Of a stretch of DNA of 64,000 nt, positions 30,648 through 51,618 are shown one piece after another. A program made the translations under genes and the position numbers. The stretch's first letter is position 1, and each line of letters opens with the position of its first letter. The notes beneath the pieces are model-generated. The model saw nothing but the letters and a program-made list of their open reading frames with translations, ran no database searches and was not told the DNA's origin. The stretch is from Bacteroidota bacterium (GTDB taxonomy: Bacteria > Bacteroidota > Bacteroidia > Flavobacteriales_E > Vicingaceae), in contig JABFGJ010000003.1 of NCBI GenBank assembly GCA_013112545.1, forward strand, positions 186,001 through 250,000, in the 5' to 3' direction.

Positions 30648-31043
30648 ATGAATCAAGAATCGTTTAAAATAGAGCAACAAGAAAAATTTACCCTGATTAC
30701 AATTAAGGAAGATAAGTTTACTGCTAAATTTTCTCCAGACTTAAAGGCGGAGTTGGTCATTTTAAATAGCATAGGAACAAAATACATCATTATTGATTTG
30801 GCATTAAGTTCTTATTGCGATTCGTCGGGTTTGAGTGCTATTTTAGTAGCTAATCGAATTTGCAAAGACAATGACGGCTTATTGGTTATTTGTAACTTAA
30901 AACCTGCTGTCGCAAAATTGATTGATATTTCCCAATTAAATTCAGTGCTAAACATAACACCAACGTTAAATGAGGCCATCGATTTTATTTTCATGGATGA
31001 GTTGGAAAAAAGCTTGGGCGATTTAGATGAAAATCTAAATTAA
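30648..31043 (+). CDS. STAS-domain protein (anti-sigma factor antagonist-like)
   Basis: 131 residues. STAS fold with IIIDLALSSYCDSSGLSAI (about 48-66), where the serine of DSSGL would be the phosphorylation site in SpoIIAA-type proteins. The acidic tail extends 20 residues beyond the fold. No anti-sigma kinase is nearby. The stop overlaps the rnz start by 1 bp, a pairing seen in related bacteria. Confidence 0.85.
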   Translation: MNQESFKIEQQEKFTLITIKEDKFTAKFSPDLKAELVILNSIGTKYIIIDLALSSYCDSSGLSAILVANRICKDNDGLLVICNLKPAVAKLIDISQLNSVLNITPTLNEAIDFIFMDELEKSLGDLDENLN

Positions 31044-31951
31044 TGTCATTTAAAGTACTCATACTAGGCAACGGATCAGCATTGCCAACTATTTCATCGA
31101 ATCAGAGCTCTCAAGTTGTAGAAGTAGGAAACTCGCTTTTTTTAATTGATTGTGGCGAAGGCACTCAAATTGAATTAAGGCGAAATAAAGTTAAGATTCA
31201 GAACCTCGATCACATCTTTATTTCTCATTTACATGGCGATCACTTTTTTGGTTTGGTTGGATTGATGTCAACCATGCACCTGCTCGGTAGAAAAAACGAA
31301 TTGCACATTCACGGACCAAAAGGACTGGATGAAATAATCCAAATTCAATTTAGAAATGCTGGAAGCCATTTGTCGTATAACATGATATTTCATGAAGTTT
31401 ATGAAGCAGGGCAATTGTTGTATGAAAACAAAGAGGTTAAAATTACTACCATTCCACTTATGCATCGAATACCTTGCTTTGGGTTTTTAATTCAAGAAAA
31501 AATAAAACTTAGAAAAATTAAAGTGGAAGCTTTGGCAAGGTATAAAATTCCTATTCACGCTAGAAAAAGTATAACTGAAGGGAGCGATTACACGAATGAA
31601 GAAGGCCAGGTCATTCCAAATCAATTAATGACCATAGACCCAGAGCAACCCAAATCTTATGCTTATTGCTCTGACACTGCATACGCGGAAAGAATTATAG
31701 AATTTATTGAAGGAGTTGATTTATTATACCATGAATCAACTTTTTTGGAAAGCGAAAGAGCGAGGGCTAAAAAAACATTTCATTCAACTGCTGCAGATGC
31801 TGCTCGTATTGCGAAACAAGCACATGTGGGCAAACTTATCCTCGGTCATTTTTCTAATCGATACAAAGATAAAACAGCTTTTTTGGCTGAAGCAAAACCT
31901 ATTTTCAGTTTAACTGAAATTGCCGAAGAAGGGAAGGAGTATTTAGTTTAA
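31043..31951 (+). CDS. rnz: Ribonuclease Z
   Basis: 302 residues. Metallo-beta-lactamase fold with HLHGDH (62-67), GNGSALPT at the N-terminus, and later zinc ligands in YCSDTAY and LGHFSNRY. It cuts the 3' trailer of tRNA precursors, which matters because the tRNA genes here mostly lack CCA. The last bases overlap the remnant of the miaA 3' end lying on the opposite strand. Confidence 0.95.
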   Translation: MSFKVLILGNGSALPTISSNQSSQVVEVGNSLFLIDCGEGTQIELRRNKVKIQNLDHIFISHLHGDHFFGLVGLMSTMHLLGRKNELHIHGPKGLDEIIQIQFRNAGSHLSYNMIFHEVYEAGQLLYENKEVKITTIPLMHRIPCFGFLIQEKIKLRKIKVEALARYKIPIHARKSITEGSDYTNEEGQVIPNQLMTIDPEQPKSYAYCSDTAYAERIIEFIEGVDLLYHESTFLESERARAKKTFHSTAADAARIAKQAHVGKLILGHFSNRYKDKTAFLAEAKPIFSLTEIAEEGKEYLV

Positions 31952-32050
31952 TTGCTTTTCAATAAAAAGTGAAACTTCTTTTAGTTGATTAGCTTGAAAC
32001 CAGTTAATCTCAGCATCTTTTTTAAACCAAGTCATCTGACGTTTAGCATA
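31952..32050 (-). repeat. Duplicated 3' end of miaA (copy next to rnz)
   Basis: 99 bp, 98 identical to 32316-32414 inside the 3' end of miaA. The only internal difference is a synonymous serine codon. The copy keeps the reading frame and its own stop codon at 31943-31945, giving a C-terminus ending EKQLN. It is separated from the intact gene by a 265-bp insert. Confidence 0.92.
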
Positions 32051-32315
32051 ATCTAATTAAAACTTGATATTTTGATTTTGAGACTGCCTTTTAGCAAAAG
32101 GTAAGTAAATCTGATGAATTGCCTTAGAGAAACCGGAAAGCTTCGAAGGTTGACCTAGAAGATCATCCGGCTGAACTTAGGTAATTCGAATATTTACTTT
32201 CTTTTTGATAAAGGCTGAGCTTTTTGTTACTTTTTGCTCACCAAAAAGTATGAGAAATCTCAATTAGGCATCAGAATTAAGTTTTGCCGAAAAGCAAAGA
32301 AAACATTTAACTAAG
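32051..32315. mobile_element. 265-bp insert between the miaA-end duplicates
   Basis: Non-coding by eye. It includes CTTTTTG-CTCAC-CAAAAAG, a hairpin at about 32233-32250, within a GAGCTTTTTGTTAC context also seen in part near 51442. Its right end supplies the last two codons and stop of intact miaA (LS). It may be a small non-autonomous element; no terminal inverted repeat is evident. Confidence 0.45.
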
Positions 32316-33215
32316 TTGCTTTTCAATAAAAAGAGAAACTTCTTTTAGTTGATTAGCTTGAAACCAGTTAATCTCAGCATCTTTTTTAAACCAAGTCATC
32401 TGACGTTTAGCATACCTTCTACTATTTACTTTTATTTTTTCAATGGCGAATTCTAAAGAAGTATTTCCATCAAAACAATCGAATAGCTCTTTATAACCTA
32501 CCGTTTTTAAGGCGTTTTTTTCACGATACTTTATCACAGACTTAGCTTCATCTTCTAATCCTGTATGCATCATCAAATCAACTCGTTTGTTAATACGATC
32601 ATACAGTTTTTTTCGATCCATTCCCAAGCCAACTTTTAGAATATTAAAAGGGCGCTTTTTCTTTTCCCCTTTTCGGATTTCAGTGTATGTTTTGCCTGTC
32701 ATTAAACAAACTTCAATGGCTCGCATTAGTCGCTTACTGTTGTTTATATCAACTTCTTGATAAAAAAGGGGGTCTAATTCCAACAGTTGCTTTTGCAATG
32801 ATACTATGCCTTCTTGCTCAAATCTCTCATTTAATGCTTCTCTAATTTTAGGGTCGGCTGTTGGCACCTCAGAGTCAAAACCTTGGCAAACAGCATTGAT
32901 GTACATGCCAGAGCCTCCACACAATATCGCAATTGGATTTTTTTGGAAATAGCCTTTTAGAAAATCCAAGACCTCAAATTCATAATCACTGGCATTGTAT
33001 TCCTCTACAATGGACTTGTTGTCAATAAAATGGTGTTTTACTTCGCTTAATTCTTGTGCATTTGGCTTAGCCGTACCAATGCTTAGTTCTTGAAAAAACT
33101 GCCGAGAATCAGCTGAAACAATATCGCATGATAAACTTTTGGCCAAGTCAATTGCAAAGGCTGTTTTGCCAACAGCGGTTGGCCCACAAATTACAATGAG
33201 TGTTGGAGATTGCAA
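32307..33215 (-). CDS. miaA: tRNA dimethylallyltransferase
   Basis: 302 residues. P-loop GPTAVGKT (11-18), DSRQFF, and RRYAKRQMTWF near the end. It adds a dimethylallyl group to A37 of tRNAs reading U-starting codons. The gene is intact although its last codons come from an insert that duplicated 99 bp of its 3' end. It ends a minus-strand block with the IS1096-passenger-like gene (2 bp upstream) and cca. Confidence 0.95.
   Translation of the reverse strand: MQSPTLIVICGPTAVGKTAFAIDLAKSLSCDIVSADSRQFFQELSIGTAKPNAQELSEVKHHFIDNKSIVEEYNASDYEFEVLDFLKGYFQKNPIAILCGGSGMYINAVCQGFDSEVPTADPKIREALNERFEQEGIVSLQKQLLELDPLFYQEVDINNSKRLMRAIEVCLMTGKTYTEIRKGEKKKRPFNILKVGLGMDRKKLYDRINKRVDLMMHTGLEDEAKSVIKYREKNALKTVGYKELFDCFDGNTSLEFAIEKIKVNSRRYAKRQMTWFKKDAEINWFQANQLKEVSLFIEKQLS
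32316..32414 (-). repeat. Duplicated 3' end of miaA (copy inside the intact gene)
   Basis: The partner of 31952-32050. Homology starts exactly two codons before the miaA stop and ends within RRYAKR, consistent with a ~99-bp target duplication. Confidence 0.92.
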
Positions 33216-51377: not shown

Positions 51378-51618
51378 GGCTTCAAATATATAGACAAATT
51401 TGAATTTGACTAATTAAAGCTTTCAAGATTTTTTTCAAAGGACGAGCTTTTTTTGCTTCATTTATTTGCGGCAAAAAATGAAGAAAGACTAATGATACCC
51501 ATAAACTTATACTTAAAACGAATTTTAACACTTATGGCTTATCGTAAAATTGAAATGGAAATGGTTGTTTAAGTCAATTTGAATAGGAGAATAGTGCAAA
51601 ATCTAGAATTAGATATTT
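51378..51618. other. Intergenic, no gene seen
   Basis: About 240 bp with a GAGCTTTTTTT-CTTCATTT-AAAATGAAG hairpin at about 51442-51480, similar in style to the insert near miaA. No credible coding frame. Confidence 0.4.

Follow-up and report, generated by a model that had tools for sequence, protein, structure and literature searches.

Anatomy of the miaA–rnz locus

Within the window, by which we mean the whole 64,000-nucleotide stretch of DNA analysed, the convergent genes rnz and miaA meet at a 99-bp direct repeat whose two copies enclose a 265-bp insert (Table 1). Pfam assigned miaA to PF01715 and gave the rnz-like protein a beta-lactamase fold. Sequence comparison bore out the claim of an earlier note that 98 of the 99 bases agree between the copies and that 265 bp lie between them, and the single mismatch is synonymous, falling in a Ser codon of miaA. 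Both copies encode YAKRQMTWFKKDAEINWFQANQLKEVSLFIEKQL, which is followed by N* in the rnz-side copy and by S* in intact miaA. The same note had read the intact gene as drawing its last two codons and stop from the insert, with the older end still overlapping the rnz stop; translation confirmed this, since miaA now ends in QLS* and the older, stranded end in QLN*. No coding capacity was found in the insert.

The repeat score at this locus was 96, compared with a maximum of 16 over 533 mispaired flanks, so the 99-bp repeat is not a product of chance. A gapped comparison found that weak similarity runs 32 bases further left, where the end of rnz resembles the right end of the insert. Because the similarity extends beyond the 99-bp repeat, the duplicated unit may be about 131 bp with a diverged edge, and not only 99 bp. 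From this comparison we infer that the right end of the insert is either such a diverged duplication edge or an annealing site.

Table 1 Features of the miaA–rnz locus in the window
Feature	Position	Strand	Remarks
rnz (ribonuclease Z, beta-lactamase fold)	31043..31951	+	Stop overlaps older miaA end
Similarity at rnz end	31920..31951	.	Counterpart of insert right end
Direct repeat copy 1, stranded miaA 3' end (...EKQLN*)	31952..32050	.	Stop overlaps rnz end
Insert, 265 bp, dispersed structured repeat copy	32051..32315	+	90% over 228 bp to G000:C4:241065-241293
Structured core of repeat, long covarying hairpin and 3' hairpin	32097..32252	+	Covariance model R1, 154.8 bits
3' hairpin (32229-32249) and upstream pairing partner TGAG (32216-32219)	32216..32249	+	Loop CTCA (32237-32240); putative pseudoknot, covarying in family
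Insert right end	32284..32315	.	Imperfect similarity to rnz end, shuffle P=0.004
Intact miaA (IPP transferase, PF01715)	32307..33215	-	Final two codons and stop within insert (EKQLS*)
Direct repeat copy 2, functional miaA 3' end	32316..32414	.	98/99 to copy 1

An ancient arrangement shared with relatives, which the earlier note had named as the finding that would count against such an insertion, did not appear: none of the 109 relatives' miaA loci compared, all from outside the genus, has its miaA end duplicated, and rnz adjoins miaA at none of them. Because these loci have neither the second miaA end nor the rnz neighbour, the rnz–miaA arrangement with its duplication appears to be special to the source lineage.

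The insert belongs to a dispersed structured repeat family

A search of the source genome (G000) for the 265-bp sequence, which the note had proposed, returned one good copy, on contig C4 (Table 1), and weaker partial copies besides. We built a covariance model, R1, from 14 copies. Among 46 genomes of the same bacterial family, 20 contain matches to this model, 79 copies in total; a search at the level of the order returned the same 46 genomes, and two further families within the class also have copies (f5 and f32 genomes). No family in Rfam 15 matched the insert or its core above the gathering score.

Several measures point to a conserved fold. Across the 79 aligned copies, 87.7% of cells are paired, and 757 cells have changed on both sides, compared with 254 +/- 13.5 in shuffles and 108–204 in slid-partner controls, a count that leans toward structure, since the copies were aligned by fitting them to the fold and related copies do not amount to independent observations. 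The insert itself folds far better than its shuffles (z -5.35). Covariation links the loop of the 3' hairpin to an upstream stretch (CTTGAC/GTCAAG, CTTGAT/ATCAAG, TGAG/CTCA and TGGG/CCCA), which indicates a predicted pseudoknot between the two; the mean run in the pseudoknot test was 4.80, compared with a null of 4.31 +/- 0.09. Among the copies that we looked at, an unsystematic sample, most are intergenic and their neighbours vary. The R1 family is thus a dispersed, non-coding and strongly covarying structured repeat, and it is a candidate for a new structured RNA or single-stranded DNA class of Bacteroidota that has no Rfam entry. In the open-access titles and opening parts of abstracts covered by our literature search, there was no paper on this family, or on bacterial duplications of this kind.

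A second, degenerate family copy, scoring 31.2 bits, lies in the window at 51385-51482. On its right it is flanked by sequence similar to the right flank of the C10 copy in the source genome, which suggests that this subfamily has a longer unit. In another genome (G041; L147, L186 and L191), several element copies share a nested palindrome, GCCTGTCCGCGGCAGGCGGG, at an identical position in the hairpin.

The insert differs from MITE copies in the same genome

The copy on C4 sits in an element of about 335 bp with terminal inverted repeats (AATCACTGGTGT.../...GGACAATAGTGATT), and the copies on C2 and C8 are shorter relatives with the same termini and direct repeats of about 10 bp, such as GATTTAGAAT. 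These termini also occur at contig ends, beside a possible transposase start. Contigs C3 and C13 (L142, L143) both end about 110 bp inside one insertion sequence, presumably IS4-like, whose terminal repeat matches the MITE copies. The end of C13 (L283) also encodes a 420-amino-acid protein resembling the reverse transcriptase/maturase of a group II intron.

The miaA insert aligns inside the C4 MITE, starting about 80 bp inward of its left terminus, so that the left terminus is absent, and the right one is degenerate at best. The insert is thus a truncated copy of the repeat family. In being small, non-coding, dispersed and AT-rich, with some family members that carry terminal inverted repeats and target duplications of about 10 bp, the family resembles the non-autonomous, insertion sequence-driven MITEs of bacteria. 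Unlike those, the insert at miaA lacks a recognisable left terminus and is flanked by a 99-bp duplication instead of the roughly 10 bp seen at the C2 and C8 copies. Neither terminal inverted repeats nor a short target repeat were found at its junctions or at those of a second insertion of the same kind, in genome G019 (below). Because the ends of the insert differ from the terminal inverted repeats of the ordinary MITE copies, classical transposition is unsupported.

It is conceivable that a resident insertion sequence moved the element as an ordinary MITE with a 10-bp target duplication, and that the left end was then lost and the site was remodelled by secondary duplication or gene conversion. 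The C4, C2 and C8 copies, the matching termini at contig ends and the alignment of the insert inside the C4 MITE all speak for such a history. However, it needs several steps, the left terminus is missing and the right one degenerate at best although the repeats stayed 98/99 identical, and the G019 insertion shows the identical architecture without termini. We regard this history as improbable.

A parallel insertion in a relative has empty sites in sister genomes

The G019 copy, on contig C20, is the top-scoring member of the family and lies in a 306-bp insert between 35-bp repeats that are identical at 34 of 35 positions. Its site is the stop/start overlap of two genes unrelated to miaA and rnz. 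When the flanks were joined at one repeat copy, they aligned in a single piece with the sister genome G009 (750 nt, 89–90%) and with G011 (~700 nt, ~70%); G009 has an empty site that holds one copy of the 35-bp stretch, and G011 is likewise empty. The two 35-bp copies in G019 agree where both differ from G009, which argues that the duplication is younger than the split between G019 and G009. Together, the two loci indicate that insertion with a long target duplication has occurred at least twice, independently.

Sister genomes also show empty sites for two further copies, G041:C25 and G011:C4, both of them insertions in short spacers, which argues that the R1 family is mobile. No clear long repeat flanks either of them; G041:C25 has at most a decayed repeat of about 50 nt, with a score of 15, where the 95% point of the null is 16.

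The G019 locus bears on two other explanations of the miaA site. Restoration of a gene 3' end by the incoming copy is the classic look of site-specific integration, and the miaA 3' end is restored in this way, as if the locus were the remnant of an integrative element that had recombined there, with the repeats as attL/attR-like sites. Against this, the insert is only 265 bp long and has no integrase, family copies lie at unrelated sites, and viral contig, plasmid and phage collections gave no match to the element. Site-specific integration fails because the sequence duplicated in G019 belongs natively to the empty target in G009, and we consider it very improbable. An assembly artefact we take to be more improbable still. 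The locus was judged from assembled sequence, and repeats of the R1 family could mislead an assembler, but every other copy is at most 90% identical, the two 99-bp copies differ by a base, the flanks are unique, and G019 provides a parallel with independent empty sites.

These results uphold the proposal of the earlier note that the locus records an insertion with an unusually long target duplication, both through its anatomy and through the independent parallel; ordinary transposition is not supported. Whatever the mechanism, an insertion with target duplication very probably took place at miaA.

A possible dedicated mobilisation system

When bacterial transposable elements insert, they normally duplicate about 2–14 bp of the target. 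One explanation for the 35- and 99-bp duplications is that a trans-acting protein recognises the element as RNA or single-stranded DNA and inserts it through long, variable staggered cuts, as in target-primed reverse transcription or by an unusual transposase. The strongly conserved structure with its covarying pseudoknot, the repeated mobility with empty sites in sisters, and the rank of the two long-duplication cases (first and third by score among the 79 copies) would fit such a system, and the source genome has one reverse transcriptase gene, which resembles a group II intron maturase. However, no reverse transcriptase (PF00078) was found in G019, G041 or G011, and the ends of the insert are not fixed, as the non-core flanks measure 46/63 bp and 107/41 bp in the two long-duplication inserts. 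We judge dedicated mobilisation unlikely, if a serious contender.

Two known systems offer partial likenesses. Non-LTR retrotransposons and SINEs, which move by target-primed reverse transcription, share a structured RNA-like unit and variable long target duplications, but G019, the clearest parallel, has no detected reverse transcriptase, and movement of the element as RNA is not indicated. REP/BIME repeats with their RAYT transposases, and the hairpin ends of IS200/IS605 elements, are likewise intergenic, hairpin-forming and multicopy, but the R1 structure is longer and has several helices and a putative pseudoknot. Y1 transposases also count against a dedicated mover: they do not adjoin the copies, except for one about 1.8 kb away in G005, and the R1 match near one Y1 gene is weak at most. 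A Y1 transposase as mover was therefore rejected for the genomes searched.

Proposed template switching or repair of a staggered break

The explanation that we favour, and whose chances we judge to be evenly balanced, is that the element was copied in by template switching or by capture and repair at a break with a long stagger. A dispersed, non-coding structured repeat would have been copied into the overlap of rnz and miaA, and the same event would have duplicated 99 bp of the target, perhaps about 131 bp, leaving both genes whole. After copying the miaA end, a nascent strand could have jumped to an element copy elsewhere as its new template, been extended by 265 nt there, re-annealed to the end of rnz through the imperfect similarity and copied the miaA end a second time. 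The outcome would be equivalent if a break with long staggered ends had captured the element. Template switching fits because the ends are truncated, the length of the duplication varies and the end of rnz resembles the end of the insert over 32 bp (P=0.004). Plain tandem duplication of the element together with the miaA end was rejected, as it would have left an element on the rnz side of the older miaA end, where there is none.

Templated insertions at tandem duplications look similar, in that a duplication accompanies an ectopically copied insert with imperfect similarity at the junction; in the present cases, by contrast, no exact donor was found and the insert came from the same element family both times. 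Within the source assembly, no copy exceeds 90% identity or extends across the ends of the insert, which counts against template switching; the donor may since have disappeared, or assembly may have collapsed it. Similarity is significant at only one of the four junctions, the right side in the window; the corresponding value for G019 is 0.15, and the left junctions of both are not significant. Recurrence of the same element in two cases points to an element-specific factor, something not expected from plain template switching. Near-identity of the 99 bp beside a diverged 32-bp edge would require gene conversion or an edge made of donor sequence.

The insertions in G041 and G011, which have no clear long repeat, also count against template switching or break repair. 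One idea, drawn from two cases only, is that long duplications occur at gene overlaps, where nothing shorter would be tolerated; there, selection would retain an event only if the duplicated stretch was long enough for both genes to stay undamaged.

Two independent cases of 35 and 99 bp, with the same element and with empty sites for one of them, would mean either that a structured repeat promotes an unusual kind of insertion or that repeats spread through compact genomes by template switching. The more far-reaching proposal would make the repeat a bacterial mobile element of a new class, a structured RNA or single-stranded DNA with a conserved pseudoknotted fold, a trans-acting insertion machinery and long, variable target duplications; this is quite unlikely in our estimation. 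If true, such an element could enter overlapping genes without harm by means of its long target duplications.

Background control and other flanking repeats

In 567 kb plus 459 kb of control sequence, which we searched for pairs of repeats ~30 bp or longer and 50–650 bp apart, there was no other unique-sequence pair of this shape; the control is rough, as element neighbourhoods make up much of its first set and the rest was sorted by eye. The remaining pairs were low-complexity sequence, coding sequence, paralogous genes, other dispersed repeats, or an array beside a Y1 gene. On contig C2 of the source genome, around 31429 (L273), the only Y1 transposase match of that genome adjoins an array of ~261-bp palindrome-containing repeats.

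Several flanking repeats around family copies were set aside. Those in G045, G060:C71, G011:C23 and G014 proved to be other dispersed repeats or hairpins, and G076:C198, with a repeat pair of ~28 nt, was left out of the count of cases. The flanking repeat at G021:C35 (L221) is an old pair of ssb genes with a weak element. These diverged ssb genes are nearly identical in mid-gene, which looks like gene conversion.
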